DNA of 64,000 nucleotides from Candidatus Minthosoma equi. GTDB taxonomy: Bacteria; Bacteroidota; Bacteroidia; Bacteroidales; Bacteroidaceae. Shown piece by piece: positions 4,406-50,120 of the stretch (within the stretch, counting starts at the first letter, position 1; each line of letters begins with the position of its first letter). The stretch covers positions 1 through 64,000 of the forward strand of contig JAGHUI010000026.1 in NCBI GenBank assembly GCA_018064885.1, in the 5' to 3' direction. Both the position numbers and the translations under genes were made by a program. Below the pieces are notes generated by a model. It worked only from the letters and a program-made list of their open reading frames with translations. It ran no database searches and was not told the DNA's origin.

Positions 4406-7400
4406 TTAACTCTCTTTTGTTCTAAACTTTTTCGCGTATTCGGATGGCGTGATGCCAAACTCTGTGCGGAAGTTTTCGGTGAATCGTTTAGGTGAGCTGT
4501 AGCCGATGGCGTATGCAATTTCGGTGATCTGCATCTGGCTCTGCTCAAGATACTGTTTGCCTCGCTTAAGACGTATGATGCGGATAAATTCGCCAGGTCC
4601 TTTACCTGTGATATTCATGAGTTTCTTATACAGATATGTACGACTCATGGCAAGTTCCTGACCGAGTGATTCTACTGAGAAGTCTGGATCGTGGATGTTA
4701 TCTTCGCATATTTGGATGGCTTTCCTGATGAACTTCTCATCAACTGATGTAATGGTGATTTCGCTTGGAGCAACATCTATCTGCTCTTTGAACTGGCGCT
4801 GACGTATTTCTTTCTTTTCTATGAACTTGCGAACTCGGAGACGAAGCATCTCAGCGTTAAATGGCTTGGTGATGTAGTCGTCTGCACCAAGCTTGAGTCC
4901 CTGCACTTCAAACTCTTCATCGGTGCGTCCTGTGAGAAGGATAACTGGAATGTGTGACCAGCGCAGGTCGCTCTTGATGAATTTGCACAGTTCCATACCG
5001 TCCATCTTTGGCATTGTGACATCACTGACAACGAGGTCGATGCCGTCATTCTCTTTCAGACATTCTACTGCCCTTTCTCCATCGCCTGCTGTGATAACAT
5101 TATATTCTCCACGGAAGTAGTCGCGGACAAATCGGCACATATCAGGGCTGTCGTCCACCATGAGCATGGTGAATCGGTGGTTCTTCTCCTGTGCTTCTTC
5201 ATCATCAATAGGATTATCTCCTGAAGCCTGAGCGGCGGCCTCAGCGGCATTGCTGTCGTCAATTGTAGGATCATCTGCAACAGAGCGTGTGAATTCAGCA
5301 AGTTCAAGTGCATTCTTAAATGCTTCTTCGCGTGGGTCGAGCGTTCCTGCTGCCTCAGCAGGCTGTTCTGACTCTGGGGTTGGCACTTCTTCTTGATTTC
5401 GCTGCTGGGTTAATCCAAGAGGAACATACATAACTTGTTCTGTCGGAGTTTCCTGCTGCACAGGTTCTGTTGCAGAGAACAACTTGCCTGCTGAGGCATT
5501 CTCCGTGTGACGAAGATCAAGAAGCATGTTCACCTGATGGAGCAAGAGCTGAGCATTCTTCAAGACTTCTTGCAAGCGTTGTTTTATATCTTCAGGAATA
5601 GGCTGATTGACAAGTATCTGGAGTGGCGAGATGATAAGCGTGAGAGGTGTGCGGAGTTCATTACTCATATTGATGAAGAACTGCTGTTTCATCTTTGACA
5701 TACGGTCAAACTGTTCGTTCTCTATACTTGATTTCTGTGCCGCAAGTTTACTGAATTGTCGCTCACGCAAAAAGCGATATGTGAGAAAACCAAGTACAAG
5801 GATGAGCAATATGTATATGATTTTTGCCCAGATTGATGCATAGAATGGAGGAGCAACATTGATGTCGAGTGAAGTCACCTCGCTCCATGTTCCGTCTTCG
5901 CCGCATGCTTTTATTTCAAGGATGTAGGAGCCTGAAGGAATGGAGAAGAACGAGATAGAGCCATCATTTGTGTAAGACCATTCATCGCTCATTCCTACAA
6001 GACGATAAGCATAGCGCACTCTTGTAGCATTGAGAAGATTGCCCGTGAAGAAATTAATGGTAATCTGGCGGTCAACATATTCAAGATCAATACTTGAGAC
6101 CGTCTCTCCATACTCTTCGGAAAGGAAAGCTGGATCGGCAACAATGACGGAATCACCAACGCTGACTTGTGAGATTATCGGCTTTGAAGAAGTAAGAGCA
6201 AGTGCCTGAGCATCATTTGTACGGATGAGGGTGTAGCCCTGTGGACCTCCCATGGCAAGATCTCCCGATTTCAAGACACAAGCTGCACCGCCATTGAAGT
6301 AACAGTCTGTGAGACCGTCCTTGTGGGAATAGTTACGGACTATGGCACGGAAACCACCATCATAGGTTGGCTGTATGCAAGAAATGCCTGCTCCGGTGCT
6401 TACCCATATCTTTCCCTTATCATCCTTGAGGATGCTCTTCACATAGTTATCAGCAAGACCAGATACACGATCAATGTAGTGAATAGAATCTGACTTTATA
6501 TCCCAAACCGTCATGCCAGACAAGTGTCCAATCCACAATGTCTGATCCTTATTGTCTTTATAAATAGATGTGATAGTGGTGTTCAGGAAATCCTGCTTAC
6601 CCGATTTATTTCCTAAATACAACTGTCCCTTGCCTGTTTCTGTATTCAGGGCATATACGCCATAGAATGTGCCGACATAGAGAGTTTTCTTACCATCAAA
6701 ATGCATGGCAAGACCGACAATGTCTGATCCGTCATCTCTTTTGTATGGCTTAATGACGCCAGTCCTTGTGTCAATGCTAGTGAGAGTTCCAAATGCTGAA
6801 CACATCCAAATTTTTCCTTTCTTGTCACGAGTCACTCTCCACGCTGAGTTTGTTGGCAATGAGCCATCAACAGTGCTCATGTGGCTTATTGCCCCACCCT
6901 GACCGAGGCGATAGATACCTTCACTATATGTACCAACATATATATCGCCATCACATTCGGTAATTGACGAAATTGTGATATTTGGCACTGGTGCTTTCCA
7001 TATGTTCCCATCAGGCAATTGCGCGTAGAGACCATTGCCGTCAGTTCCCATCCACAGGTTGCCTTTGCTGTCTGTGAAAAGAGTACTAATGTCGCCGCAT
7101 TGCTGAGCGTGGCTCTGGAAAATCTGATAATAGTCATTAGTATAGGAAATACCATTCTTCAGGTGACCTAACCAGATTGTTCCCATGCGATCCTTAAAAA
7201 GACAAGTCACATTATTTGAAGCAAGAGCTCCATTTTTGTCAATCAAACTAGCAACAGATGTAGTTATGTTCTGTATTTCTCCATTACGCTTATTGAACAC
7301 ATATACGCCCTCATGGTCAGTAGCAATCCAAATGTGTCCAAGGTCATCATCAAGAACGGAACGAATAGAATTGCTCTGAGAATCAAACTCAGAATCAAGT

Positions 7401-8167
7401 GTCAGTGGAATATGAACAGAGCCATCAATGTTCATACGACAGATAGCCTCAGACATAGTAGAATATACCCAGATGGCATTATCTCTGTCAACATAACAGC
7501 GGTAGCGAGCCTCTGAACCGTTCATGCTTTCAGGAAGAGTGAGAGGATGCAGATTACCGCTGCGAATATCGAATCTCCAAATCTCATTCTCATGGGCAAT
7601 AACAATACCGTTCTGAATGTCGTCAATAGTCCAGCCATCACGGTTCTGCATGGATAATCTGACAGGATAATCCTCTGTCTTGCCGTCCTTGAAATTATGG
7701 TAGAAGATATGACCAGGAGAGATTATGTAAAGATTCTTTGAAATATCAACATGGACTTTATAGTTCATGCCGTCAACATTGATACCGAGTGACTTTATAT
7801 ACTCGGCAACATTAGTTGAAAAGCCTTCTTTGCCACCTTTGTAAATAACGTATGGCTGCATGCCTTCAATCCATATCTTACCTTCAGCGTCTTCCTGTAT
7901 AGACAATACATTATTTGCCAAATCCTGAGAATTTGGACCATATGAATAGTATGTTTTGAAAGAATATCCATCAAAGCGGTTCAAACCGTTTTCTGTTCCC
8001 ACCCACAGATAGCCTCGGCTATCCACGAACACAGCTACAACGGAACTGCAAGACAGTCCCTCATTGGTGTTCATGTGGTTGAACATGTATTGTCCCTGTG
8101 CATAAGTATTGAGATTGAAGGCAAAAGCCATCAAAAAAGATAAGAAGTATAGATGTAGCCGTTTCAT
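4406..8167 (-). CDS. hybrid two-component regulator (HTCS) with degenerate kinase
   Basis: A 1253-residue HTCS-type regulator. Signal peptide (1-24). Two seven-bladed Reg_prop propellers (about 25-690; repeated GKIWVST / GNLWMGT motifs). Y_Y_Y domain (about 700-770). One membrane segment (about 777-798). Dimerisation helices with a remnant H-box. Receiver (about 1000-1115; acidic DD pair near 1004, phospho-acceptor D1049 in VSDVTMP, Lys in TKPF). AraC-type helix-turn-helix (about 1145-1250). The H-box reads MSNELRTPL: the phospho-accepting His is Asn836 (codon AAT at 5660-5662, one base from CAT). After the second helix there is no HATPase_c domain. A Glu/Ala/Pro-rich linker (about 880-995) replaces it. 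It should still sense a periplasmic ligand and bind DNA but cannot autophosphorylate. The start is the ATG at 8167; the TTG one codon earlier is not needed. Which nearby operon it controls is not evident. Confidence 0.93.
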   Translation of the reverse strand: MKRLHLYFLSFLMAFAFNLNTYAQGQYMFNHMNTNEGLSCSSVVAVFVDSRGYLWVGTENGLNRFDGYSFKTYYSYGPNSQDLANNVLSIQEDAEGKIWIEGMQPYVIYKGGKEGFSTNVAEYIKSLGINVDGMNYKVHVDISKNLYIISPGHIFYHNFKDGKTEDYPVRLSMQNRDGWTIDDIQNGIVIAHENEIWRFDIRSGNLHPLTLPESMNGSEARYRCYVDRDNAIWVYSTMSEAICRMNIDGSVHIPLTLDSEFDSQSNSIRSVLDDDLGHIWIATDHEGVYVFNKRNGEIQNITTSVASLIDKNGALASNNVTCLFKDRMGTIWLGHLKNGISYTNDYYQIFQSHAQQCGDISTLFTDSKGNLWMGTDGNGLYAQLPDGNIWKAPVPNITISSITECDGDIYVGTYSEGIYRLGQGGAISHMSTVDGSLPTNSAWRVTRDKKGKIWMCSAFGTLTSIDTRTGVIKPYKRDDGSDIVGLAMHFDGKKTLYVGTFYGVYALNTETGKGQLYLGNKSGKQDFLNTTITSIYKDNKDQTLWIGHLSGMTVWDIKSDSIHYIDRVSGLADNYVKSILKDDKGKIWVSTGAGISCIQPTYDGGFRAIVRNYSHKDGLTDCYFNGGAACVLKSGDLAMGGPQGYTLIRTNDAQALALTSSKPIISQVSVGDSVIVADPAFLSEEYGETVSSIDLEYVDRQITINFFTGNLLNATRVRYAYRLVGMSDEWSYTNDGSISFFSIPSGSYILEIKACGEDGTWSEVTSLDINVAPPFYASIWAKIIYILLILVLGFLTYRFLRERQFSKLAAQKSSIENEQFDRMSKMKQQFFINMSNELRTPLTLIISPLQILVNQPIPEDIKQRLQEVLKNAQLLLHQVNMLLDLRHTENASAGKLFSATEPVQQETPTEQVMYVPLGLTQQRNQEEVPTPESEQPAEAAGTLDPREEAFKNALELAEFTRSVADDPTIDDSNAAEAAAQASGDNPIDDEEAQEKNHRFTMLMVDDSPDMCRFVRDYFRGEYNVITAGDGERAVECLKENDGIDLVVSDVTMPKMDGMELCKFIKSDLRWSHIPVILLTGRTDEEFEVQGLKLGADDYITKPFNAEMLRLRVRKFIEKKEIRQRQFKEQIDVAPSEITITSVDEKFIRKAIQICEDNIHDPDFSVESLGQELAMSRTYLYKKLMNITGKGPGEFIRIIRLKRGKQYLEQSQMQITEIAYAIGYSSPKRFTENFRTEFGITPSEYAKKFRTKES

Positions 8168-10301: not shown

Positions 10302-11666
10302 TTATTCCTCCATTGGCATTGCAACCATGCCGATTGCTTCTATTGTCTTAGGATCAGATGGACGTGTCATGTCTGGATTGATGATACGACCGTCAGGACC
10401 GATGAAGATGAAACGTGGAATGCTTGAAACACGATATTTGCGAAGGAACGCATTGTCTTCATCGCCCCAAAGCTGAATGCCAGTGAGTTGCTGTTCCTTT
10501 ACCATTGACTCCCATTTTGCCTTGTCGCGGTCGCAAGAGATGCTGACGAAAGCAATGTTCATGCCATGGAATGTCTCTTCAAGTTTCTTGAGATGTGGAA
10601 TCTCGCCCTTGCAAGGCACACACCATGTTGCCCAGCAGTCAATATAAACATACTTGCCACGGAGGTCGGCGAGAGAGACTGTATTTCCGTTGATATCAGG
10701 GAAAGAGAAGTCTGGTGAAGGACGACCTGCTCTGAGCACATCTCCATTTGCCCAAGCAACCTCAAAAGCATGCTTGATCTCTGCATCTGTGATGTTTGCC
10801 TCAAAGATTTCCTTCACACGGTCAGCACCTTCATAACCGTTGTTTGCAACAAGAGCAACAGCGTTAGTACCAATGATGTACTCCTTGAGGTCTTTGTTGC
10901 TGATATTGTTTGCAGCATACTCACAAACCATAGTAACAGCCTTTGCCTGGAACTCTGGTGTGTTCTCTACATCTACACCACGCAAAGCGAGAGCAGTGAT
11001 TGCGCTATACTGGAAGTTTGTGTATTCAGGCATCTGCACAAGCCATGCATCCTCACAAGAAGAAAGATCTTTGAGAACATCATAAATCTCGTCGCCGCAT
11101 GCTTTCTGCTGAGCATACTGTGCAAGGAAACCATAGATCCAATAACGGATGCGAAGCTTTTCCTTACCAACGAAAGTCTTATCAAGTTTCTTGGAATCAA
11201 CAATTTTGTAGCAGTTTGTCTGATATTCATCAAGAATGTCAAGAATCTCTTCTGGGTTCTTGCCGAAGTCACCCATTACAGGGCCTTTAAGCTCGCCGCA
11301 AGAGAGGTAAGGGTTAATCTGTGATTTCTTTGATGTGACATTCACAGTGAGAGCAGCAGGAGTGAGATCCCATTCCATTTCAAAATCCTTTCCAGGTTCG
11401 AGATAGACGGTTGACTTCTTCCAACGGTATGTGATCACGCCGTATGTTGGCTCTTTCACATTGATAGAAACATTGCCCTTTGTTGTCTTTGTGGCAACAG
11501 CAGTATCTCCAACAGCTTCCATATTGATAATAGTATCAGTTTGTGCGAACTGAATTTCCACCTCATTGACACTTGTGTCGTGAGCTGTAAAGGTGATGTT
11601 TACTGGTTTCTGAGCATTTGCAGCAATGGCAAAAACGCTCATCATTGTAATAAATAGTTTTCTCAT
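10302..11666 (-). CDS. TlpA-like thioredoxin-domain protein, WCVPC
   Basis: A 454-residue periplasmic or surface protein with a signal peptide ending AIAANAQ (about residue 19). Residues 20-130 form a beta-rich domain of the DUF4369-like type often fused to thioredoxins. The middle is helical. The C-terminal thioredoxin/AhpC-TSA domain (about 315-450) contains GRPSPDFSFPDINGN and the redox motif WCVPC (C349, C352), with the cis-Pro loop SSIPRF. It probably reduces or resolves disulfides in exported proteins or imported substrate. It is 5 bp downstream of a second TlpA-like gene in the same operon. Confidence 0.9.
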   Translation of the reverse strand: MRKLFITMMSVFAIAANAQKPVNITFTAHDTSVNEVEIQFAQTDTIINMEAVGDTAVATKTTKGNVSINVKEPTYGVITYRWKKSTVYLEPGKDFEMEWDLTPAALTVNVTSKKSQINPYLSCGELKGPVMGDFGKNPEEILDILDEYQTNCYKIVDSKKLDKTFVGKEKLRIRYWIYGFLAQYAQQKACGDEIYDVLKDLSSCEDAWLVQMPEYTNFQYSAITALALRGVDVENTPEFQAKAVTMVCEYAANNISNKDLKEYIIGTNAVALVANNGYEGADRVKEIFEANITDAEIKHAFEVAWANGDVLRAGRPSPDFSFPDINGNTVSLADLRGKYVYIDCWATWCVPCKGEIPHLKKLEETFHGMNIAFVSISCDRDKAKWESMVKEQQLTGIQLWGDEDNAFLRKYRVSSIPRFIFIGPDGRIINPDMTRPSDPKTIEAIGMVAMPMEE

Positions 11667-11671
11667 GGATG

Positions 11672-12922
11672 TTAATTGTTTAAGTAATTTTCTATGAGTT
11701 TTATCTTTGTTTCCTTATCTCCATTAACGGCATTGTGACGAACAATGCCATCTTTGTCAATGACAACCACATGTGGAATGGCAAGAGCGCCATAGTCAGA
11801 GTTCATCACGTCCTCTTCGCTGATGCCGATTGTCCATGTTATGCCTTTCGCCTTCATGTATTCTGGGAAGAAAGACATTTCTTTTTCCTTATCATTAAGA
11901 CACTGTATGGTGCGCTTGTTTGCATCAACAAAGTAGCCCTGAAGCGATGTTACGCCAAGAATAACGACATCTTTTCCGTCGAAATATGTCTGTATCTCAG
12001 CAAGTTCAGGGAATGCCTGAAGACATGGAACGCACTTGGTCCCCCAGAAATCGAGCATCACTACCTTGCCCTTGAATGCATCGAGCGAAGCAGCAGGAAG
12101 AATCTCAACCTCACCATTGTTCTGCTTGAACACACGAATGAGATGAAGCTCTGGAGCTTTGCTGCCCACAAGAGTGCCGCAAGCGAATGGACCTTCAAGA
12201 TATTTCACCTGTTCCTTGCATGCCTTAATTTTTCTCTGAGATTCAAGAGTGCCAGCAAGCGCAGAATACTTGTCACGACAGATTGTGCGGAACTGATCAC
12301 GAAGACCTGCATCAATAGTGTCAACTCGAGCAATGGAATTGAACACCTTGACACACTCCATGACAGCCTTATCGGAGATGTTGCAATTCATAAGATGAAG
12401 CATGCCTTCTGCAAAACCTTCAGTATGCCAGTTAGCATCTTTCATTGTTGGCATTGCATCGAAAACGTCTATTGTAACCTCGCTATGTTCATTTATCACC
12501 TTCTGCAAATCCTTGGCAGCAAGGAAGTCAACAAAAGCAGCCGTCTCCTTCTCTCCATGCATGAAGCCATCATTCTCTGGCATATATTTCCAAAGATAGA
12601 AAGCAAAAATAGTCTCTGTCTTTGCACGCAGCTGGAATGTCGGTTCAAGCCACACACGAAGCAAGCGGTCAAGCGTCATGCCGCCATTCTCAAAGAGAAG
12701 ATTCACCTGTTGAGAAGTAATCTTTGTAATGTCAGCAGTGGCAGCAAACTGAGTAGCAACCTTATTGAACGCCTCTTGCTGCGCTTCTAATGTCTCACAC
12801 CCCATCATAGCAGCGCCAGCGTCACGGCAGAACGCCTTAAGCTGTTCGTCTGTTGGAGGCTTTGCTGCCCACATAAAAGTGGAGGCAAGCAGGAAGATTG
12901 ATGATAAAAGGTATTTGAACAT
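11672..12922 (-). CDS. TlpA-like thioredoxin-domain protein, KCVPC
   Basis: A 416-residue protein with a signal peptide (MFKYLLSSIFLLASTFMWA). The open frame extends 20 codons further upstream, but that part is Lys-rich, encoded by an A-rich repeat, and unlike a signal sequence, so I take the ATG at 12922. The N-terminal 250 residues are mostly helical and unrecognised. The thioredoxin-like domain (about 270-410) has WGTKCVPC (C297, C300) and IPHVVVID with the cis-Pro. Trp of the usual WCxxC is replaced by Lys, which should shift its redox potential. It lies between the metallohydrolase-like lipoprotein and the other TlpA-like gene. Confidence 0.9.
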   Translation of the reverse strand: MFKYLLSSIFLLASTFMWAAKPPTDEQLKAFCRDAGAAMMGCETLEAQQEAFNKVATQFAATADITKITSQQVNLLFENGGMTLDRLLRVWLEPTFQLRAKTETIFAFYLWKYMPENDGFMHGEKETAAFVDFLAAKDLQKVINEHSEVTIDVFDAMPTMKDANWHTEGFAEGMLHLMNCNISDKAVMECVKVFNSIARVDTIDAGLRDQFRTICRDKYSALAGTLESQRKIKACKEQVKYLEGPFACGTLVGSKAPELHLIRVFKQNNGEVEILPAASLDAFKGKVVMLDFWGTKCVPCLQAFPELAEIQTYFDGKDVVILGVTSLQGYFVDANKRTIQCLNDKEKEMSFFPEYMKAKGITWTIGISEEDVMNSDYGALAIPHVVVIDKDGIVRHNAVNGDKETKIKLIENYLNN

Positions 12923-12932
12923 TTTGACTTTT

Positions 12933-12957
12933 AGTTTTAGTTTTCGTTTTAGTTTTA
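12933..12957 (-). repeat. A-rich 6-bp-phased leader motif, copy 3
   Basis: The minus strand reads AACTAAAACGAAAACTAAAA across the lipoprotein stop codon and the 32-bp gap before the TlpA-like start. It is a variant of the copies at 1237 and 10276. Confidence 0.55.
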
Positions 12958-14964
12958 TTTCAATATAAATCTGTAATACCAAGTCTTTTTGTCTCTCTTG
13001 ACTGTTGCTCCGAGATATGGGTTCTTTGCATCAGAACGATCAATTTTCCATCCGCCATTCCAGATGCAATTGCCATCAGCATCATTAATCGCATTGAAGA
13101 GACAAGGGTTGTAGAGGAAGTGCAATGAGATATCGGCAACATTGCCAGGCAATACGGCAGGAAGACCTGCAATGTAGTAAGGATTCTCCTCCTCATTTCC
13201 TGTATAAACAAATGTTGCCCCAGAGAGATTAGCATCTTGAAGGTCTATGCGCGTCTTGTTGTCAAGTTCAGAATACTTAGGCTTATATGCCACCATCCTT
13301 CCGTCAATCAGTACATTATAGCTTACAATCTCTTCATTTACAGTTTCCACGTCACTCACAATAGTCTGTTTATCACCACCAGCATCTTTTTCCACTTTCT
13401 CAAGATTGCCCTCTTCGTCATATATATAGAGATATGTGTGACGATAGACGTCGCTTGCCGTAAAGGTGTCATAGTCGATCACATTCTCGTATTCCTCAAT
13501 CCAATCTACCTTGCCATTGCTGAAATGCATGCGCCAGTAGCGTTTCTCATGACCGTACTCCATGAAGGTAGCACCATCGAACTTTGCCTTATGATAGAAT
13601 GTAACAGTAATGATATCCTTCATTGGAGTTATTCCCTCGATGACACGATCGTTGTACGCCACCTCAAGATTATAGTTCTCACGAGCGTATGAGTTGGAAT
13701 TATCATCCTGAATATTCAGCAACAGAACATTATTGTTTGCATAGTAAGTTATTGTAGAACTTACCTTTGCTGTTGGACGAGTCTTGCCCTCCTCATATAC
13801 CCAAACTGTAAAGATATTTGACTTTGGCTTAAGCCCTTTGAGGGTTGCGCTCAAACTTATTGCAGGAGCATCGCTCTGTGCAGACAAATCAAAAGACTGC
13901 ATTAGCTCTCCATGCATGTAAACCTCAGCCTTCTGCAAATTGTTCTCACCACGAAGCACTGTAAATTCAACCGTTTCCTCTGGAGAGAAAGCAGCAGGAA
14001 TGCTTGTGAAACGCACACCAGGATTGATGCCCGAAATGTTCACATCAAGAAAATCTGCCGCATAAGGATTCAGCTCTGCAACCTCCACGCCAATGCTTTT
14101 AAGACCATGAGCCACGTATGCCATCTTGACAAGCATATCTGTATTCTCATTATTCATTATTCTGTCATGGAGTTCCTGTGTCATGCCTACAAGAGAATCA
14201 ATGTACTGAACAAGGTCGAGACGCGCACTTGGGAAATATGTAGCATCATCATCCACAGGATTCAGGAAACCATAATCATGGAAGAACTCAGGATCCTCTT
14301 CTATAAGAGCATGCGCCTGCCTGCGATTCTCGTCCATCAGCGTAGAGTAATAAGTGTTTGAAACCTCATAGAACTCATTGTCAACAGGAGCCTCGCCACG
14401 AGCATTCACAAGATAATCAGAAAGAATGACACGGTCAATGTCCTGAGAATTAGTGTAATTGCCAACAGTAATGCTATTTATATTAGCAACTGCAGAGTGA
14501 AGTCCATCCTTAGGTACAGAACGTCCAAGCTCTGAGATGCTTTCAATTTTCTGAACTATGAGGAACTTTCTTGGCAGATATTTAGCCTTGAAAGAATTGT
14601 TATAATGAGAGAACACATTGCTCTTAAGCCATGCCATAGCTGACTCAGCACCGTCATGGTCAAGCTTTGTGAGTTTGGCATTCTCCCATGCAGTAGCCTG
14701 CTCAAACTGATAGGCAAAGTCAAGTCTTTGGTCAAAGTCATACAACACGTATGTGCCGTACTTATCACAAAACTCAGCAATATCAGGAATGCTGCGATCG
14801 AGCAGTGTTTCCAAACGATCCTTGTCGGCATAGCTTGGGGAGGTGTCTTCGCTTTCACTGCATGATGTAAAGACTCCAGCTGCGGCAAGCAACACCAATG
14901 CCATTATTATCTTATTTATATTTTTCAACTGCATAGAATATACTATTTGGAAGAGATTACTCAT
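12955..14964 (-). CDS. RagAB-associated lipoprotein, metallohydrolase-like without HExxH
   Basis: A 669-residue lipoprotein with lipobox FTSC (Cys at about residue 35 from this start). The N-terminal 300 residues, after the Cys, have the layout of the zinc metallohydrolase lipoproteins that accompany RagA/RagB pairs (KYGTYVLYDFDQ early, then helical). No HExxH zinc motif is present anywhere, so it would be inactive or a distant relative; the family call is tentative. The C-terminal half is beta-rich with Ig-like strands. The start ATG overlaps the SusD stop by 8 bp behind AGAGGA. A second ATG at 14934 (MQLKNINK) gives a more usual signal peptide. It probably sits on the surface and handles or binds substrate for the neighbouring transporter. 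Confidence 0.75.
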   Translation of the reverse strand: MSNLFQIVYSMQLKNINKIIMALVLLAAAGVFTSCSESEDTSPSYADKDRLETLLDRSIPDIAEFCDKYGTYVLYDFDQRLDFAYQFEQATAWENAKLTKLDHDGAESAMAWLKSNVFSHYNNSFKAKYLPRKFLIVQKIESISELGRSVPKDGLHSAVANINSITVGNYTNSQDIDRVILSDYLVNARGEAPVDNEFYEVSNTYYSTLMDENRRQAHALIEEDPEFFHDYGFLNPVDDDATYFPSARLDLVQYIDSLVGMTQELHDRIMNNENTDMLVKMAYVAHGLKSIGVEVAELNPYAADFLDVNISGINPGVRFTSIPAAFSPEETVEFTVLRGENNLQKAEVYMHGELMQSFDLSAQSDAPAISLSATLKGLKPKSNIFTVWVYEEGKTRPTAKVSSTITYYANNNVLLLNIQDDNSNSYARENYNLEVAYNDRVIEGITPMKDIITVTFYHKAKFDGATFMEYGHEKRYWRMHFSNGKVDWIEEYENVIDYDTFTASDVYRHTYLYIYDEEGNLEKVEKDAGGDKQTIVSDVETVNEEIVSYNVLIDGRMVAYKPKYSELDNKTRIDLQDANLSGATFVYTGNEEENPYYIAGLPAVLPGNVADISLHFLYNPCLFNAINDADGNCIWNGGWKIDRSDAKNPYLGATVKRDKKTWYYRFILK

Positions 14965-16486
14965 TTATCGTTTCCTCTCTTTTACCATAAGGAACAATAG
15001 TTGTATTTATCTGTGTTTCAGCCTCGGGCAATTCAAACACATAATTCGGAGACGAAGGCAGAAGCGTGTATCTCTCTGTTCCCTGCACCGTGACATTAGT
15101 AGAACCAGATGCAGAAGATGCGAGAGTGAATGTATGAGTCAAAGTATGTGGATACCATGAGTTGATGCGTCGCAAATCAAACCATCTCATATTCTCAAAG
15201 CAGAACTCCAAGCGACGCTGATCAACAACAAACTTACGCCATTCAAGCTCACTTGCTGAAGCGGAAGGCATGTAGGTGGCACGCTGAGATGAGAAGTTCG
15301 CAATTCTTGAAGAAAGATACTTAATCATCAAAGTCTGTGCATCTCCCAATTTATCAAGGGCTGCAAGAGCCTCTGCACGATTGAGATATGCTTCTGCCAA
15401 ACGATAAGAGTAAGCACCGATCTGTGTGAACTGACCATGCCATTTTGCAGGAACAGTCATGCTCGTACCGCCCTGAGGATTGATAACCCATGTGTATTTG
15501 CGGCAATCGTTCGATGCAAGAGCAAACTTAGAAAGCAAATCCTCTGATGCGCCGTATGTGCAAGTTGTAAGCTCTGTTTGATAGATTGATGGAATCTCCA
15601 TGATGCCAAGACTCTCATCTGTGCCAGGATAGAGCAACGCTGGCGAACCATAACTGTGCAGGACTTCCGTATTCGTCTCAACTATCATAGGAGAATTAGG
15701 ACGACGAGTCAAGTCATAAAGCTGTCGGCTTGCAAGCTGCTCTGTAGCATCAAGCACATTTTGCCATTCTCCTTTATATAAATATGTACGCGAGAGAAGC
15801 AATTGTGCAGCATCTGCGTTTGGATGCCATAAAGACTTCTTTGCAGCAGTTTTCCCAAACAAGTTTATTGCCTCTTTCAAGTCCTTTTCTATCTGAGCAT
15901 AAACACTTGCTACTGACGCACGAGAATAATTGTTTGAGACTCCTGTGTCCAATCGCAAAGGCACACCTGCAGTACTGGAAGCCGTAGCAGCATCATAAAC
16001 AGGAGCATAGATATTGACAAGCTCAAGATATGCCCTAGCTCTAACGAAATATGCTTCAGCCACAAGATAGTTGCGCTCATCGTCTGTACCTGTAGCCTTC
16101 GGGCCATTCTCAATGACATAGTTTGCCACAAGAATGTCACTATACAACTTTTGCCACATGCTGTTTGTAGCTGTGATAACCTCTCCTTCTCCATCGCGCT
16201 CAACATCACGTTTCCAAGTGTAAAGACTCTTGTAAGTATTCTTCGCCGACGTAGTTGCAGAAGGGTTCTCAGTTATGTCATCTGTCATCAGATCAGACAT
16301 ATAGAACCATGACACATCAAGGAATGTCTCTTTATGCAACATTGCCTCATACTGTGTTACCGATTCTGGAATCACAAGATCCTTATCTTCTTCATTGAGG
16401 AAATCGCTGCATGATGTTAGAGATGCACACAAAAGCAGCAATACCAATGTGGATTTCAGATATTTATATATATTGATGCTATTCAT
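14957..16486 (-). CDS. RagB/SusD-family surface lipoprotein
   Basis: A 509-residue SusD/RagB homologue with lipobox LTSC (Cys at about residue 26) followed by SDFLNEEDKD, typical of the family. Helical TPR-like repeats are seen around LVAEAYFVRARAYLELVNIY and RLAEAYLNRAEALAAL, and the late RRLEFCFENMRWFDLRR motif is a SusD signature. It would form the lid of the SusC-type transporter, which begins upstream in the operon. The gap to SusC is 14 bp. Its length is usual for the RagB branch. Confidence 0.95.
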   Translation of the reverse strand: MNSINIYKYLKSTLVLLLLCASLTSCSDFLNEEDKDLVIPESVTQYEAMLHKETFLDVSWFYMSDLMTDDITENPSATTSAKNTYKSLYTWKRDVERDGEGEVITATNSMWQKLYSDILVANYVIENGPKATGTDDERNYLVAEAYFVRARAYLELVNIYAPVYDAATASSTAGVPLRLDTGVSNNYSRASVASVYAQIEKDLKEAINLFGKTAAKKSLWHPNADAAQLLLSRTYLYKGEWQNVLDATEQLASRQLYDLTRRPNSPMIVETNTEVLHSYGSPALLYPGTDESLGIMEIPSIYQTELTTCTYGASEDLLSKFALASNDCRKYTWVINPQGGTSMTVPAKWHGQFTQIGAYSYRLAEAYLNRAEALAALDKLGDAQTLMIKYLSSRIANFSSQRATYMPSASASELEWRKFVVDQRRLEFCFENMRWFDLRRINSWYPHTLTHTFTLASSASGSTNVTVQGTERYTLLPSSPNYVFELPEAETQINTTIVPYGKREETINE

Positions 16487-16500
16487 TATTCTTCTATATT

Positions 16501-19500
16501 TTAGAAACCAATCTGTATTCCGAAGTTGAATGTTGGAAGCACAGGCATACCGATTGATGCTACCTGATCAGGATCCTGTCCTTTAAGCTTTTTGTCGAAA
16601 GCCCATACACCAAGGTTCTGAGCCTGGAAATCTATACGGCAGTTGGAAATCTTTGCTGTCTTCAGCCATTCCTTTGGCAGATCATAACCCAGAGTGAGCG
16701 AACGGAAACGTATGTGGCTTGCATTTACCACACGCTCATCAGAGTTGTTATACATGTACCATCCTGTGTATGAAGAAGGACCGCAATATGTTGCATAAGC
16801 CTGATCAACATCAAGATATGAATCGTTGTAGCTGTTCAGAGTTGATGGTGAACGATAGTTAAGTGATGCATTAGTCAGCACAGGAATTGTGGTATGAGCT
16901 TCATCACCAGGCTTTCTCCAGCGATCAACAAAGTCAGCATTCATATTATCCTCTGGCTGAGGGAGAGCAGCCGTACCGTTCTCATACAGAGCAAGAAGAC
17001 GCTGCTTGTAGCCGAGCTTGTAGGTGAACTGAGCACGAAGCGTGAAGCCCTTCCAAGCAAACTCTGTGGAGAAGCTTCCATAGCTGCGAGGAGTGCGTGT
17101 TCCACTGTATGAAAGGATTGACTGCAAGAACTGGTCGCGTGTGAGCTCTGCCTTATTGCCTGTGAGATTCTTGAATGTTGGCAAACCGTTCGCATCAAGA
17201 CCGTTGAACTTATAAGAATAGAAACCGTCCACGCTGTTTCCATCAAGCACCACAGAACCATTCACATAATCAGCGTATGTGTTCGTAGAAATAATGCCTC
17301 GCTTGATGTTGTTCTTGTTGTATGAATACATGAAGGATGTGCGCCAGCGGAAATCCTTTGTTTTGACGTTGAGGGTATTGATTGTGAACTCTATACCTGT
17401 GTTTGTTGCTTCGCCATCATTGAAGAAAAGTGAAGTTGTACCATTGACGAGAGACACGGAACGGTTGCTAATCAAATCGGTAGAGATGCTGTGATAGAAA
17501 TCAATGCCGAGATTGATGCGATCTCTCAACATTGAACCATCAATACCGAAGTTCCATGTTGATGTCTTCTCCCACTCAAGATTAGCGTTTGGATAGTCGT
17601 GGATGGAAGCTGAAAGCTCGCCGCTCACGCTGTTCTTTCTTGGAGTGGTGATTATGAGGTATGGAGTGGCACTTGGCACGCTTCCTCTATAACCATACGA
17701 ACCGCGAACGGAGAGAGAGTTAAGCCATTCCACATCTTTCAGAAAATCAAGTTCGTGAAGGTTAACACGACCAGATGTTGACCAAACAGGATTGAACTTT
17801 GCCTTCTCGTATTGACCGAACTGATTGCTGCCGTCATTTCGGGCATTGAAGTTGAAAGAGAAGTAGTTTTTGTATGTGTAAGTTGCTGTGAGATAGAATG
17901 ACAGCTTATTATTTTTCTTTGCTGTGATAGTAGGGAAAGCAGAAGGATTTGTTTCCGCACCCATGAACCATTGGCGCAGATACCAATAGTACTGCTGGGC
18001 ATCAACAGCTGAGCCTGCCCACACAGGAATGAACGATTCGCCCTGTTCTGGAGAATAACCAGGAATCTGACCAGTATTGTGTCCGCGATACTGAGTAGAA
18101 GTGACTTCGTGTCCTAGATCGAAATTGAACTGATGCGTATTATTTATTTCAAAATTGTAATTCAGCTGATTACGCCAAAGGTATGACTTCTGGTCAATAG
18201 CAGAACCAGACCACAAGCCACCATCCTGCAACACAGCTTGCATGAAAGCGTCTGCACGAGGCATCTCATCAGCATATCCGCGAAGCTGAGCACAATAGAA
18301 CGTGTTTTCACCAATCCAGTTTTCTGTATTGTTGCTGGTAGAAGTGTATCCTACAGTTGTTGTATAGCGCAAGCCTTTCATCATTTCCCAGTTGAGGGAT
18401 CCTGTGAGGTTGAGCGACTTATTCTTAATTGTCTGTCCGCTGTTAGCAAACTCATGCAAGATGTTATAGTTTCCGTAAACATTCTGACCTGTTGTCTGAT
18501 CTTGCTTTATCAGCTTCTTAATATAGGAATAAGATCCGTCGCTGTTGTAGCATGGGAAAATACGGTTGGTGTAATATGCCTCGTCGAATGCACTGTATGA
18601 TGGGGAATTGTAGTGTCCATCCTGCTGTGATCCGCTCAGACGAAGGTCAATAGTCACATTGTCAGCAAGGTGGGTAGTGAGATTCATTCGTGCTGTGAAT
18701 CGCTGCAAATCAGTGCCGCGCTCTGCACCTCTGTCATCGTCATATCCAACAGAGGCATAATAGCGTGTTCCTGATGCACCTCCGCTCAAGCTAACGCTAT
18801 GTGTCTGCGAGAATGAATTGCGATAGAGTGCGCCAAACCAGTCGGTATTGTTTGCCTCCATCTGTGACACCTGCTGCTGGAACTCGTTGAATGTGATGTT
18901 TTTATCCCAGTAGTTCATCATTGCACCTTCGTAACCATAGCGTTCTGGCATTGTCTCGAAGAAGAGACCCTTATCCATGATCTCACGGCTCACGTCAATA
19001 CGCTGTTTTGATGTCATGAGATTGAAATCGCTGTAGTGAGGACGGCGCTGAGCTTGTGCGTTGAAAGAGTAGTTCACTTTTGTTTTTCCTATCTCACCAG
19101 ATTTCGTCGTAACCACAATCACACCATTGGCGGCACGAGTACCGTAAATGGCTGTTGCAGAGGCATCTTTCAGAACATCAATACGTTCAATATCCTGAGG
19201 GTTGAGACCAGATATTGCATTGCCTATGATATTGATATTGTCGAGAGAATTGATTTCATCGGCACTTACAGGAACTGGATTTTCATAAATCACACCATCA
19301 ATAACCCACAGCGGCTCTCTTGTGCCTGTGAATGTGGTGGTACCACGCAGACGCATGCGTGGTGCTGCACCTGGAGTGGCGCTTGTAGTAAGTGTAAGCA
19401 AACCAGCAACTTTACCCTCAAGCATTTGGTCAACGCTGAGTGCGCCCTTGAAGTCAAGGTCGTCTTTTGTTATTGAAGAAATACTGCTTGTGAGCTTGCG

Positions 19501-19908
19501 CTTGTCAATGGTATTATAACCGGTAACAACCACCTCGCCAAGCAATTTATCATCAGGCACCATGCGGAATGTATAGTTCGACTTACCTTTTGCAACTGTC
19601 TGCTTACTTTCAGCATAACCCACAAACGACACAACGATTTTGTCCTCCCTGCCTGTGGCTGCAATGGAAAAATCACCATCGTTATCTGTTATAGACATAG
19701 TTGATTCACCATCTTTCATTAAGACAGTTACTTTTGCGCTTGGCAAACCTTCTCCGTTTTCGTCAAGCACCTTACCTTTTATGTATTGCATTACCTGGTC
19801 TGACTTCCGCCCCTCATGGTGTTCTTGAGCATCAGCATTCAAGGTAACAAATGAAAAACACATCAACAATAATATGATGTGAGAAGCACATAATTTATCT
19901 TTTATCAT
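16501..19908 (-). CDS. RagA/SusC-family TonB-dependent outer-membrane transporter
   Basis: A 1135-residue TonB-dependent receptor with a signal peptide (cleavage after ADAQ, about residue 28). A carboxypeptidase-regulatory-like domain (about 42-125, IKGKVLDENGEGLPSA) is followed by a TonB-box region (GEVVVTGYN), the plug (about 135-260) with DVLKDASATAIYGTRAANGV, and a 22-strand barrel ending FGIQIGF. It imports its substrate across the outer membrane using energy from TonB-ExbBD. It is the first gene of a six-gene unit that includes two thioredoxin-like proteins and a peptidase-like lipoprotein but no glycoside hydrolase, so peptide-type cargo is more likely than a glycan (inference). Confidence 0.95.
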   Translation of the reverse strand: MIKDKLCASHIILLLMCFSFVTLNADAQEHHEGRKSDQVMQYIKGKVLDENGEGLPSAKVTVLMKDGESTMSITDNDGDFSIAATGREDKIVVSFVGYAESKQTVAKGKSNYTFRMVPDDKLLGEVVVTGYNTIDKRKLTSSISSITKDDLDFKGALSVDQMLEGKVAGLLTLTTSATPGAAPRMRLRGTTTFTGTREPLWVIDGVIYENPVPVSADEINSLDNINIIGNAISGLNPQDIERIDVLKDASATAIYGTRAANGVIVVTTKSGEIGKTKVNYSFNAQAQRRPHYSDFNLMTSKQRIDVSREIMDKGLFFETMPERYGYEGAMMNYWDKNITFNEFQQQVSQMEANNTDWFGALYRNSFSQTHSVSLSGGASGTRYYASVGYDDDRGAERGTDLQRFTARMNLTTHLADNVTIDLRLSGSQQDGHYNSPSYSAFDEAYYTNRIFPCYNSDGSYSYIKKLIKQDQTTGQNVYGNYNILHEFANSGQTIKNKSLNLTGSLNWEMMKGLRYTTTVGYTSTSNNTENWIGENTFYCAQLRGYADEMPRADAFMQAVLQDGGLWSGSAIDQKSYLWRNQLNYNFEINNTHQFNFDLGHEVTSTQYRGHNTGQIPGYSPEQGESFIPVWAGSAVDAQQYYWYLRQWFMGAETNPSAFPTITAKKNNKLSFYLTATYTYKNYFSFNFNARNDGSNQFGQYEKAKFNPVWSTSGRVNLHELDFLKDVEWLNSLSVRGSYGYRGSVPSATPYLIITTPRKNSVSGELSASIHDYPNANLEWEKTSTWNFGIDGSMLRDRINLGIDFYHSISTDLISNRSVSLVNGTTSLFFNDGEATNTGIEFTINTLNVKTKDFRWRTSFMYSYNKNNIKRGIISTNTYADYVNGSVVLDGNSVDGFYSYKFNGLDANGLPTFKNLTGNKAELTRDQFLQSILSYSGTRTPRSYGSFSTEFAWKGFTLRAQFTYKLGYKQRLLALYENGTAALPQPEDNMNADFVDRWRKPGDEAHTTIPVLTNASLNYRSPSTLNSYNDSYLDVDQAYATYCGPSSYTGWYMYNNSDERVVNASHIRFRSLTLGYDLPKEWLKTAKISNCRIDFQAQNLGVWAFDKKLKGQDPDQVASIGMPVLPTFNFGIQIGF

Positions 19909-21250: not shown

Positions 21251-22600
21251 TTACTTAACAAGCTGACCTGCTACGTTGAACTTCTGACCGCTCTTGTAGA
21301 TAACAACCTTACCGTTCTCCATGAACTTACCTGTCTTAGCAGCTGAAGTCTGAAGAGCCGAGATTGAAGAACCGCCTTCTGTGATAGTAACTGTCATTGC
21401 TGCGAGGTCAACTGTTACTGTGTATGTGCCAGCAGCAAGTTTGAAGCTTGCATCTGCACCCTTAACAAGTGTACCTGCTTCGCCAATTGTACCCCAGTCA
21501 GCAACTACAGAATAACGATCAGCGTTGAATGCGTCCCAGTCCTCTGCTGTCTCTGAGAGAGTTGCACCGATAGCGAACCAACCATCGCCTTCCCAGTTGT
21601 CATTAACTACGATTGTACCTGAGTAAACACCATCAGCGTATGCGAGCTCAGCGCAAGCCTGATTTGGAGTCCAGTCACCACCGTTTACATTACCGATAAC
21701 GTAGAGAGGATCTGCCTTCTTTGATACAAGACCCTTAGCAACATACTTCTCAGATGTAGAACCTACCTGCTCGTAGATTGTAACGCTCTTGATTGTGCAT
21801 GTGCAGCCTTCGAAGCCCCACATGTTCCAATAGAGACCGTAAGCATTTACATCTGTCCAGTCTGCTGGAACGCTGAGTGCATCAATCATTTCTGAAAGGA
21901 ATACAGTTACCTTGTTCTCACCCAAACCCTGTACTGGGCAGTCGAAGAGCTTAGTGCTGCTGTCGAGTGAAGAGACTGAGCCTGCGCCCCAGTTCTGATA
22001 CTTAGATGCGTCGCCATCTACTGTGTAAACGAACTCAACCTTTGCATCCATTGAGTAACCGTCAAATTCTGTGTCGATGATGTTGCCGCCGTCCATAGTG
22101 ACAGCCTTACCCTCGTCGTACTTGATAGTGTACTTCTCGACTGCAGCGTCAAGTTCTGCCTTTGTGCCGAAATACATTGCCTTGATTACGCAGTTACCTG
22201 CATCGTTGTGGTTCTGCATTGCAATCTGACCAACCTTGTCCTTGTGATCCTTGTTGAGCTCAAGACCGAAAGCGAATGGCTTAGATGACTTGGCAACTGT
22301 TGCATTTGACTCATAGTAGATTGGTCCCCACTGACCTTCTTCACCAGTTGGATCGTGCTGGATGAGGAAAGAGAATTCGCAAGATGCGGACTCGCACTCA
22401 AGGATGAGGTAGTCGTAAGCAGAAGCATCGAAATATTCTGCCTCGCCCTTGAAACCTGTGTTACCAACCCAACTCCAACTGCCACCAAATGTTACTGTGT
22501 TTGGTGCGTCAGCACTTGTCATTGAAGAATAGTCAACCTGCTGAGCGCTCATTGAGAGTGCTGCAAAAATTGCTACAAGAGAAAGTAAAATTTTCTTCAT
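21251..22600 (-). CDS. secreted SusE/F-like protein with conserved C-terminal tail
   Basis: A 449-residue protein with a signal peptide ending SMSAQ (about residue 20). Residues 25-290 are beta-rich with many aromatic residues (GGSWSWVGNTGF, YGLYWNMWGFEGC), like a carbohydrate-binding module; the family is not recognised. Residues about 305-415 carry a SusE/SusF-type repeat (LYVIGNVNGGDWTPNQA, then GTIVVNDNWEGDGWFAIG, then AAGTYTVTVDLAAMTVTI). The last 30 residues match the tail of the protein at 8424-10226 in 26 positions, and resemble a type IX sorting signal (inference). It is last in the xyloglucan operon after a 20-bp intercistronic hairpin, and is probably a secreted glycan-binding protein. 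Confidence 0.85.
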   Translation of the reverse strand: MKKILLSLVAIFAALSMSAQQVDYSSMTSADAPNTVTFGGSWSWVGNTGFKGEAEYFDASAYDYLILECESASCEFSFLIQHDPTGEEGQWGPIYYESNATVAKSSKPFAFGLELNKDHKDKVGQIAMQNHNDAGNCVIKAMYFGTKAELDAAVEKYTIKYDEGKAVTMDGGNIIDTEFDGYSMDAKVEFVYTVDGDASKYQNWGAGSVSSLDSSTKLFDCPVQGLGENKVTVFLSEMIDALSVPADWTDVNAYGLYWNMWGFEGCTCTIKSVTIYEQVGSTSEKYVAKGLVSKKADPLYVIGNVNGGDWTPNQACAELAYADGVYSGTIVVNDNWEGDGWFAIGATLSETAEDWDAFNADRYSVVADWGTIGEAGTLVKGADASFKLAAGTYTVTVDLAAMTVTITEGGSSISALQTSAAKTGKFMENGKVVIYKSGQKFNVAGQLVK

Positions 22601-22657
22601 GTCTTAAAAATTATTAGTTAAAAATTAATGAATAAGTTATTTTTGTATTTCTTCTTT

Positions 22658-22705: not shown

Positions 22706-22716
22706 TTAAAAGATGT

Positions 22717-24183: not shown

Positions 24184-24209
24184 AAGTTTGAGTTCTTAAG
24201 TTTCTATGT

Positions 24210-25853: not shown

Positions 25854-25876
25854 TATTATATTATAGTATTATGGGG

Positions 25877-27838: not shown

Positions 27839-27840
27839 CT

Positions 27841-47635: not shown

Positions 47636-50095
47636 TTATCCTTTGACTTCGATTCTTTCAATAACAACCCCTGGATCGAGAGGACGAATGGTTAGAGTAT
47701 GCTTTCCGTCAATGGCATTGCCTACAGGAAGTGAGATGCGCTGGCGATTTACTCGTGTGGTCTCCCACTGGTAGTTTTGGTCGTGGAAGCCATCGCGGAT
47801 GTACTTTGATGCTTCGTTGATGTTGATAACCTGTGGCTCTTTGCCGTCTATGCTGATTTCTACTTTCTGTCCGCGACCGCTATTGAATGGGAATGTTGGA
47901 GCAAAAAGAATGTCGAGATCTGCCTTCGTTGCATCGGATGCAAGAGGAATGGCGTATGAGATGCTGCTTCCTTCTGTACCTTCTGTATAAGGCATCAAAG
48001 CAATGCCGCAACGATAAACGCCCATGTCTGGAATCACTGTCCACTGTGCCTTTGGAGCATTTGTCTTTGCAATAAATTCATCTGCCTCAATTGCTGTTGG
48101 CATTCCTGTTGAAACTGGGAAACTTGCATTAGGAACGGACGATGCGTCAATGCGAGTGACTGCTGGCATGATGTTCTTTGGAGGATTGTTCCATGAACGA
48201 TAACCAATGTGAATCTCGTCCATCATGTGGTTCCACTTGCCTTTTGCAATGTTATGGTTGTAATCGTAACAGAGCTCTTGATCGCGCTGGAAGCAATGCT
48301 CTACCTTGTCTGCCCATTCGTTTGCCTGAGGGTCATTGTTCTTTGCAAGCGCCTGATTCATGGCAACGGCATAATACATATTATATAGATTAGCCATCAC
48401 ACGGATAGGGAAGTAGATGAGCTGCTTGTATGTGTCACGATACTCTGCAGGCATGTGTTCGAAGAGCACATTGGCATCATATTCCAACTGGTTGTACTCG
48501 GCTACTTTTTCTGCCCATTCTCCGTTCATTAGATTGAAGGTGCGTGCATCAAGCAATTCTGGGGTGCGGCGATGAGCAAACTTGCATTGGAGATTGAGCA
48601 AACGGGCTGCTTCTTTACTGAGCTCATTGCCAAATAGTTCACGACAGAAGTCTTCTGTGTATGCCATGAGATTGTCAGCACGGAACTGGTTAGGATTCCA
48701 TGCCATCTTGAACCAGAAGTCAATAGGGAACTCCATTGGCTTAAGGTCGCCTACGTTGAGAATCCAGAGCTTGTCAACACCATAGTTGTAGGTGAGGTAT
48801 AGCTGTTCCCAGAAGCGCTGAATCTGTGTGACATTCTGGAACTTGGTGTTACGTGGACCACCTACATAATCAACATGATAATACATTCCGTAACCGCCAG
48901 GATGAATCTTTGAGAAAGCACCCTCAGCAGCAGGGTCTGCACACTTGCCATCTTTCTGCAATTCTGGAAGAATACGTACATTGCCCCAGTTGTCATCGCA
49001 AAGAAGAAGGATTACATCGTCAGGAACATTCATGCCTTTCTCATAGTATTCCTGAACTTCCTTATAGAGAGCCCAAACTTGAGGTGTTTCCTTTGCAGGC
49101 TTGCCTGTTGCCTCCTCAATAAGTTTGCGCTGGGCATTGACAATCTTTTCTAGAAGAGCGACATCTGCATGCTCGCCCATTGGCTCATCGCCATTGCCAC
49201 GCATACCTATAGTGACGACATCTTCTGTGTTCTTCATGCGCTCTACACCGCTCTTCCAGAACTCGCTGAGCTGCTTGCGGTTAGTGTCGAAGTTCCATGC
49301 GCCGTGAGACTTGTCGCGCAACCATTCCTGATGAGCGCGCGCCATTGGCTCATGATGGCTTGTTCCCATCATAACACCCATATCATCAGCTGTCTGCATG
49401 TTGATTTCGTCATCTGCATAGAATGCCTCGCCCCACATGGCTGGCCACATGTAGTTACCCTTCAAGCGAAGTATGAGCTCGAAGACGCGAGCATAGAATT
49501 CATGATTGAAGTATTTACCATAGTTCTCATGCACCCAGCCTGTGAGACATGGAGCTTCGTCATTAAGGAAGATTCCACGATACTTCACGGCAGGTTCGCC
49601 ATCTGTATAGATGCCTTTCTTTACATATATTGAAGGATGCTTTGCTACAGGAACGTCTGCCCAGTCGTACCAAGGACTAACGCCAATCTGTCGGCTCAGC
49701 TCATAGATGCCATAGATTGTGCCTCGCTTGTCAGAACCCGCGATGACGAGCTTGTCATCAACGACGGTGATGATGAATTTCTCGTTCTTATCCTTCAACA
49801 AGGATGCATCGATAAGCTTCTTTTCAGCAAGTGCGTCGATAGGCGCGCTTTTGCCTAGAGTTCCAACTACGATTGGATAGCTTGAGCTGCCTGTAACTTT
49901 CTCAAGGTCTTTTTTCAGGTTGCCAACGGCGATCTCAACACCTTTCCAGTCATTTTTGTCATACACAATTTCGCCTTGCTTGCCAGTAAGGCACAGAGCA
50001 TCTCCATTCCTGTCGAAGGAGACGAATGGTTCTGCTGCAGAAACGTATGCGCTAATGCCCAGAACAAATGTTAGGATAAGAATAATTTTTTTCAC
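47636..50095 (-). CDS. GH115 alpha-glucuronidase
   Basis: An 819-residue secreted enzyme of family GH115, which removes 4-O-methyl-glucuronic acid (alpha-1,2) from glucuronoxylan. Signal peptide MKKIILILTFVLGISAYVSA. An N-terminal domain (about 25-165) precedes the catalytic barrel with KYRGIFLNDEAPCLTGWV, LKGNYMWPAMWGEAFYADD and GTSHHEPMARA, all strong family motifs. I chose the GTG at 50095. An ATG 21 bp upstream (50116) is only 4 bp from the -7 element, which would leave no leader, while the GTG gives a classic MKK signal peptide. It is a single gene, and no xylanase is in the window. Confidence 0.92.
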   Translation of the reverse strand: MKKIILILTFVLGISAYVSAAEPFVSFDRNGDALCLTGKQGEIVYDKNDWKGVEIAVGNLKKDLEKVTGSSSYPIVVGTLGKSAPIDALAEKKLIDASLLKDKNEKFIITVVDDKLVIAGSDKRGTIYGIYELSRQIGVSPWYDWADVPVAKHPSIYVKKGIYTDGEPAVKYRGIFLNDEAPCLTGWVHENYGKYFNHEFYARVFELILRLKGNYMWPAMWGEAFYADDEINMQTADDMGVMMGTSHHEPMARAHQEWLRDKSHGAWNFDTNRKQLSEFWKSGVERMKNTEDVVTIGMRGNGDEPMGEHADVALLEKIVNAQRKLIEEATGKPAKETPQVWALYKEVQEYYEKGMNVPDDVILLLCDDNWGNVRILPELQKDGKCADPAAEGAFSKIHPGGYGMYYHVDYVGGPRNTKFQNVTQIQRFWEQLYLTYNYGVDKLWILNVGDLKPMEFPIDFWFKMAWNPNQFRADNLMAYTEDFCRELFGNELSKEAARLLNLQCKFAHRRTPELLDARTFNLMNGEWAEKVAEYNQLEYDANVLFEHMPAEYRDTYKQLIYFPIRVMANLYNMYYAVAMNQALAKNNDPQANEWADKVEHCFQRDQELCYDYNHNIAKGKWNHMMDEIHIGYRSWNNPPKNIMPAVTRIDASSVPNASFPVSTGMPTAIEADEFIAKTNAPKAQWTVIPDMGVYRCGIALMPYTEGTEGSSISYAIPLASDATKADLDILFAPTFPFNSGRGQKVEISIDGKEPQVININEASKYIRDGFHDQNYQWETTRVNRQRISLPVGNAIDGKHTLTIRPLDPGVVIERIEVKG

Positions 50096-50120
50096 AATGT
50101 ATAATAATGTTTTCACAATG

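Follow-up and report, generated by a model that had tools for sequence, protein, structure and literature searches.

The gene at positions 4406-8167 of the window, by which we mean the whole 64,000-nucleotide stretch of Candidatus Minthosoma equi DNA (contig JAGHUI010000026.1) analyzed here, encodes a hybrid two-component system (HTCS) regulator without a working kinase, and it belongs to a selected family of such proteins. HTCSs are expected to phosphorylate themselves. As judged from its sequence, this regulator is missing both of the catalytic elements of autophosphorylation, the phospho-accepting histidine and the HATPase_c domain. We are confident of this anatomy and of the family in which it places the protein. 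As to function, we lean toward a membrane-tethered regulator that would still be gated by phosphorylation but would receive its phosphoryl group from outside its own polypeptide.

Apart from its kinase, the protein has the expected features of an HTCS: a sensor made of Reg_prop repeats and a Y_Y_Y domain, a transmembrane (TM) helix, a receiver with the catalytic residues DD, D, T and K, an AraC output domain and the S/CHIP-DK motif discussed below. The sensor resembles PDB entry 4a2l and the receiver-AraC part entry 12aw, both of which are named as (hybrid) two-component proteins. Pfam recognizes a HisKA domain at residues 826-886 (36.6 bits, against a cut-off of 26.9), and translation and codons alike give Asn (AAT) for residue 836, at the phospho-acceptor site, in FFINMSNELRTPLTLI. 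They also show D1049, T1079, K1101 and the acidic pair D1005/D1006 in the receiver. An earlier note on this DNA, which had described Asn836 together with an intact propeller, receiver (D1049, Lys) and AraC output, was therefore right on each of these points. With a phosphorylatable receiver, a DNA-binding domain and no kinase of its own, the protein answers to the description of an orphan response regulator; it does not answer to that of a pseudo-receiver, all five catalytic receiver residues being retained in 27 of 27 family members.

The HATPase_c domain is absent, as the note had also stated. Pfam found no HATPase family in the 1,253-residue protein at E ≤ 0.1. When the linker was set against eight intact HATPase domains by profile-profile comparison (hhalign), the probability was 0.1%, whereas the HATPase of G022, a full-length orthologue from another genome of the genus, scored 100% in the same test. 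An AlphaFold2 model of residues 779-1253 (32-row alignment; predicted local distance difference test, pLDDT, 81.4; predicted template modeling score, pTM, 0.56) contained, in order, two long helices, about 100 residues mostly with pLDDT below 50, a folded receiver and a folded AraC domain, and no HATPase fold was found in it. A HATPase-like fold concealed in the linker, which the note had named among the findings that would overturn its view, is rejected on these three negative results. The further claim that the acidic linker had replaced the HATPase does not survive. Because the alignment shows that G022 carries a HATPase and a homologous long linker together in one protein, the HATPase was excised and an older linker stayed. 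Homology between G022 and the window's gene covers the dimerization and histidine phosphotransfer (DHp) domain, the long linker and, beyond the HATPase, a stretch that contains VxYxP. Within the linker, a motif, DD[SNTH]N[AV][AG], occurs in 26 of 27 family members and in none of eight intact relatives; the rest evolves fast.

We searched 45 genomes of the genus with the whole 1,253-residue protein; here and in the wider-family searches, counts are among the matches listed, and short forms elsewhere may have been missed. In 25 of the 45 genomes there is an open frame of 430-546 amino acids that matches the C-terminal part alone, without propeller or HATPase. HATPase absence in these short forms was judged by length and alignment, and Pfam, run on nine of the 25, found no HATPase in any. 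G022 is 59% identical to the window's protein over sensor and HisKA and 70% over linker, receiver and AraC domain. The 25 short forms, the window's gene and G022 make up a family of 27. Among the matches listed, the remaining 18 genomes, many of them incomplete, gave no family member at E ≤ 1e-60; three (G030, G031 and G061) matched with a full-length HTCS that has the His. Eighty named loci with best segments at 22-49% identity were not part of these counts. When 301 family genomes were drawn, the matches listed at E ≤ 1e-105 were confined to one of 30 genera. A draw of 151 genomes gave 24 other-genus matches at E ≤ 1e-75, all in frames of 1,296-1,408 amino acids, two with an internal stop. 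The sequences of 12 of these 24 loci were checked for the H-box, and SH[DE].RTP was kept in 12 of 12; nine of them matched our script pattern for the G1 box, 11 that for the G2 box and 10 that for SHIP. As far as sampled, the kinase-less family is restricted to one genus.

The note had asked whether this class, with Asn and no HATPase, is conserved, and the answer is a conserved family in which the H-box residue is Gln in 10, Arg in 10, Asn in four, His in one (G025) and absent in two. His thus occupies the H-box in one of the 25 members that have one and in eight of eight intact relatives. In the alignment, the H-box region is missing from G032 and G062 alone (the latter taken from frame 2932-4221 of L158). 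The exceptional G025 short form (L154:7550-8926), with His at the old phospho-site and no HATPase, could represent reversion, retention or an acceptor like a histidine phosphotransfer (HPt) protein. Because the HATPase is absent from the orthologues of 25 other genomes and the His is replaced in 23 of 26 other members, chance or assembly error is unlikely to lie behind the two losses. Ordinary decay, or an artefact of metagenome assembly, would fit the 114 contigs of the window's genome assembly and the loss of kinase parts one by one, but we consider it very improbable: the frame is open over 1,253 codons, related losses occur in 26 other genomes, the kinase remnant is under purifying selection (see below), and the family-specific linker motif is found in 26 of 27 members.

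The sequences show a real, stepwise series of loss. At stage 0 stands an intact HTCS with His and HATPase (G031). At stage 1, in G022, His has become Asn and the HATPase is still present but broken: Pfam scores it at 77.8 bits, but its G1 box reads DNGPS for DxGxG and its G2 box SGGLSLQ for GSGIGL, both boxes being intact in eight of eight intact relatives. The window's gene is stage 2, with the HATPase gone and the propeller retained. At stage 3, in 25 genomes, the propeller has also gone, leaving TM helix, HisKA remnant, linker, receiver and AraC domain, and at stage 4, in two of these 25, the HisKA remnant has gone as well. The G031 protein (1,365 amino acids, L163:2946-7040) has the boxes SHDFRTPL, DSGDGI and GSGIGL, and the same-strand gene after it is 65% identical to the gene directly after the G022 regulator, which reads as esterase-like. 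It is the best candidate for the pre-loss orthologue. The note would have given way to an orthologue with intact kinase in a nearly identical strain; G031 is intact, but its sensor part is only 41% identical to that of the window's gene, and it fits an ancestral stage. In an unrooted tree of the receiver-AraC part (34 rows; the intact relative G042 was left out), G031 clusters with the family and apart from the six other intact relatives, with support 98/89. Within the family, G022 branches first, then the window's gene (86/72), then the 25 short forms together (93/85), neither support being starred; this is the branching order that we favor.

The receiver DD, D, T and K are conserved in the alignment of all 27 members, as are SHIP and two AraC-domain residues, D and K. 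The latter two, D1143 and K1182, are 39 residues apart, the same spacing as D1344 and K1383 of BT4124. According to Gao, Wu and Stock (PMC11253607), the S/CHIP-DK contact restrains DNA binding of the unphosphorylated regulator in BT4124 and BT4663, and the motif predicts phospho-dependent DNA binding. The earlier note had left a choice between direct conformational change and phosphorylation by another protein. Because the catalytic residues and SHIP-DK are kept in 27 of 27 members, we favor phosphorylation from outside. In the conformational alternative, a glycan-bound propeller would shift the DHp helices and pull the receiver off the AraC domain with no phosphorylation. The window's gene and G022 both keep the propeller with the TM helix and DHp, at 59% mutual identity, and BT4236, whose His is replaced by Gln, has been suggested to act without phosphorylation (PMC11253607). 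But BT4236 also departs from the motif (CSIP-EK), whereas SHIP-DK and the catalytic residues are intact throughout this family; and because 25 relatives have no propeller, propeller-driven change cannot be the family-wide mechanism. We regard conformational signaling as unlikely.

Two positions beside the catalytic residues of the receiver have changed. The residue at D+2 is Thr in 20 members, Asn in six and Ala in one; it is Met in eight of eight intact relatives and in 12 of 12 proteins outside the genus. At T+1, all 27 members have Gly, where eight of eight intact relatives have Ala, as do 11 of 12 proteins outside the genus, the 11 in which the pattern matched. Because both changes are already present in G022 and neither in G031, they map to the interval of kinase death. 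According to PMC8510515 and PMC12632262, T+1 governs access to the phosphorylation site, D+2 and T+2 affect kinetics, and hydrophilic residues at D+2/T+2 are predicted to enhance dephosphorylation. We infer that the receiver was retuned alongside kinase loss.

The dead kinase domain itself remains under constraint. We estimated ratios of nonsynonymous to synonymous substitution (dN/dS) by the Nei-Gojobori method (NG86) in 11 pairs of short forms picked as close relatives; some genomes were used twice and several dS values exceed 1, so the values are rough. The HisKA remnant gave 0.00-0.12 in all but one of the 11 pairs; the exception, G032/G062, gave 0.40 and has most of HisKA deleted. The receiver gave 0.00-0.08 in all 11, the TM helix and coil 0.05-0.49 where computable, and the linker 0.11-0.59 in eight computable pairs. 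In raw dN, the remnant outpaces the receiver in several pairs (0.24 versus 0.04 in G064/G025) but is far slower than the linker. Identities between the window's gene and G022 are 59% for the sensor, 73% for HisKA, 40% for the linker, 84% for the receiver and 82% for the AraC domain. These values indicate purifying selection on the remnant and, because the constraint is strong, the dead DHp is probably in use. They also uphold, together with the existence of the 27-member family, the note's view of a selected form and not decay.

Candidate uses of the DHp remnant are dimerization, receiver docking and dephosphorylation. According to PMC3510030, the H+4 residue, Thr or Asn, is required for HisKA phosphatase activity; the His itself is not required for EnvZ phosphatase but enhances it, whereas in PleC its loss abolished phosphatase activity. 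The window's protein has Thr840 at H+4, as 19 of the 25 members with an H-box have Thr, and a phosphatase role may hold for most, not all, members. EnvZ phosphatase activity without the catalytic domain is reportedly the subject of one study, to go by its title.

The DHp also bears on a second alternative, trans-phosphorylation in a heterodimer with an intact HTCS relative (here the 1,330-residue C40 protein), in which the retained DHp would pair and the partner's HATPase and His would charge the receiver. The DHp remnant is indeed conserved, and C40 has the His, a HATPase (90 bits) and a receiver-AraC part that is 54% identical. Against this, a longer relative at E ≤ 1e-60 occurs in at least four of the 25 short-form genomes (G007, G023, G034 and G064, with His in G007 and G023), which does not show generality, and the DHp is missing in two members; we think such pairing distinctly unlikely. 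A third alternative is a DNA binder independent of phosphorylation, for example one that activates or represses constitutively, its receiver being retained solely for folding. It would be in keeping with the lack of any donor found, and membrane tethering alone could control access. But the receiver dN/dS is low in all 11 pairs and the catalytic residues are invariant in 27 members, while in a receiver that serves only as a scaffold some of them should disappear, as happens in pseudo-receivers (PMC12632262). This alternative seems to us improbable.

We propose instead that the kinase of an HTCS died first and was then deleted, and that the genus-specific family went further along the same route. 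The regulator would act as a membrane-tethered response regulator (hydropathy predicts a TM helix with its positive side cytoplasmic in 27 of 27 members) whose receiver would still gate the AraC domain and still need a phosphoryl group. This would come from outside the chain, supplied by a separate kinase or by a small molecule, acetyl phosphate for example. The hairpin of the dead DHp would be retained as a dimerization and receiver-docking element, possibly also as a phosphatase, and Gly at T+1 and a polar residue at D+2 are predicted to make the active site more open and phosphate loss faster. More tentatively, the genus may have turned a sensor kinase of one chain into a receiver-bearing transcription factor tethered to the membrane, losing phospho-His, catalytic domain and sensor in that order, keeping the dead DHp under selection for in-chain docking and phosphatase activity, and retuning the receiver for outside charging, with the intact ancestor type and all stages surviving in living species. 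If this is true, those survivors would let two-component rewiring be followed step by step.

Several observations weigh against this proposal. No phosphodonor was identified: the HPt protein at 45133-45492, which the note had put forward for testing as a donor for the receiver, has matches in one of the 45 genus genomes at E ≤ 1e-6 and is rejected as a class-wide donor, although it might serve in this strain alone. The window's gene retains a propeller that an orphan regulator does not need. The HisKA cut-off is reached in just three of the nine short forms scanned (four score more weakly and two, G032 and G023, not at all), so the remnant has drifted, and HisKA is lost entirely in two members. 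The H+4 Thr has gone from six of the 25 members with an H-box, so phosphatase activity cannot be universal, and 23 of the 25 retain a kinase-specific acidic residue that a pure phosphatase would not need. A phosphatase-only DHp, which would fit Thr840 and the selection on the remnant, was set aside on these two counts and kept as a possibility. Finally, an approximately unbiased (AU) test does not reject G022 and the window's gene as one clade (p 0.206).

The coordinates of the regulator's parts and of one related locus are collected below.

Features of the kinase-less regulator and a related locus, in positions of the window
Feature	Positions	Strand	Basis
Kinase-less HTCS regulator, 1,253 aa	4406..8167	(-)	Translated open frame
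Signal-peptide-like hydrophobic N-terminus, residues 1-24	8096..8167	(-)	Reading of the sequence
Periplasmic beta-propeller sensor, Reg_prop repeats, residues 25-700	6068..8095	(-)	Pfam; PDB 4a2l match; 59% identity with G022 sensor
Y_Y_Y domain, residues 713-771	5855..6031	(-)	Pfam
Predicted transmembrane helix, residues about 777-795, positive side cytoplasmic	5783..5839	(-)	Kyte-Doolittle hydropathy
HisKA/DHp remnant, residues 826-889, Asn for His	5501..5692	(-)	Pfam; two-helix model; alignment
AAT codon, Asn836, phospho-acceptor position	5660..5662	(-)	Codon reading
Disordered acidic linker, residues 890-996; HATPase_c missing at its upstream end	5180..5500	(-)	Alignment, profile comparison, model
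Conserved linker motif DDSNAA, residues 970-975	5243..5260	(-)	Alignment, codon reading
Receiver domain, residues 1002-1112, with all catalytic residues; unlike intact HTCSs, Thr at D+2 and Gly at T+1	4832..5164	(-)	Pfam; alignment
SHIP motif, residues 1071-1074, which with D1143 and K1182 makes up the S/CHIP-DK phospho-gating motif	4946..4957	(-)	Alignment; motif from PMC11253607
AraC-type DNA-binding domain, HTH_18, residues 1170-1246	4430..4660	(-)	Pfam
GH115 alpha-glucuronidase, orthologue of the GH115 beside many short forms	47636..50116	(-)	Same strand and order, 39 kb upstream of regulator

To judge from synteny, the regulator's targets are probably glucuronoxylan side-chain genes of glycoside hydrolase (GH) families 115 and 67. 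By comparison done by hand, 16 of 27 members have a same-strand GH115 gene no more than 10 kb upstream; in the window, a xyloglucan-type locus lies between it and the regulator. GH115 matches at E ≤ 1e-200 occur in 27 of 27 member genomes (G013 at 52% identity) and in 10 of the 18 others, a distribution confounded by descent. GH67 and an M6-type peptidase lie near short forms, neighbor families being named from a Pfam run on a single representative of each. Directly after the regulator and on its strand (-107 to +106 nt) comes a gene of the UDP-glucose/GDP-mannose dehydrogenase family in 20 of 24 placed short-form loci, and GH3 in G034, G020 and G007.

In the window itself, the region just upstream of the regulator (10302-19908, minus strand) encodes a SusC/SusD pair and, after it, a protein that matches nothing in Pfam and two thioredoxin-like proteins. 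The locus at 21251-39400 (minus strand), with GH5, SusD, SusC, GH3, GH2 and GH31, is what we take to be a xyloglucan utilization locus. Between it and the HPt/kinase pair lies a gene for a 1,145-residue protein with a Schlafen/AlbA_2 domain (39648-43085, plus strand). The HPt gene overlaps that of a histidine kinase (43169-45136, minus strand) in which no receiver was found.

Elsewhere in the genus, L142:9332-11752 (minus strand) and its relatives, group c6, are stand-alone propeller/Y_Y_Y/TM sensors with no output domain, whose cytoplasmic tail, read by eye from a single sequence, has about 17 residues; in L142 the gene overlaps the next, which encodes an M6-type peptidase. They occur in 17 of 45 genomes, each of which also has a short form, and in none of the 20 genomes without one, a pattern confounded by shared descent, and were not found in eight of the 25 short-form genomes. 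They are a candidate for the missing input of the sensor-less short regulators.

This selected family, having shed the kinase and kept the phospho-switch, separates the two halves of the idea that HTCSs phosphorylate themselves. Natural intermediates are at hand, from the intact protein through dead kinase, deleted catalytic domain and deleted sensor to deleted DHp, and they open two matters to direct test: any function of a DHp hairpin other than to bear the His, and a change in receiver kinetics once the dedicated kinase and phosphatase are gone. We did not find a kinase-less HTCS class in a search of the open-licence PMC literature. It is not a wholly new kind, since BT4236 of B. thetaiotaomicron, an HTCS that has lost its His, is already in print. 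Among the glycan-sensing regulators of Bacteroides, HTCSs form a major class, and those of Bacteroidota, such as B. thetaiotaomicron, have the same order of propeller, Y_Y_Y, TM helix, HisKA, receiver and AraC domain and share S/CHIP-DK (PMC11253607). Unlike them, the regulator described here has no phospho-His and no HATPase_c, a long disordered linker with DDSNAA, and an altered receiver at D+2 and T+1. BT4236, with Gln848 at the His site and CSIP-EK as its motif, has been proposed to be phosphorylation independent (PMC11253607). It resembles our protein in the replaced phospho-His, but its gating motif deviates, whereas here the kinase is lost, with the HATPase gone, and the motif is kept: the opposite combination. 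Two proteins of the window's own genome, L007:1339-4317 (C89) and L010:1435-4386 (C33), are also kinase-less propeller-Y_Y_Y regulators with AraC output, but they have no HisKA and no receiver match, both of which the window's protein keeps. DivL lacks the phospho-accepting His. In pseudo-histidine kinases of that type, the kinase fold is reportedly retained and given another use; here, in contrast, the catalytic and ATP-binding (CA) domain is deleted (retained but broken in G022), and the dead DHp shares a chain with the receiver that it once served.

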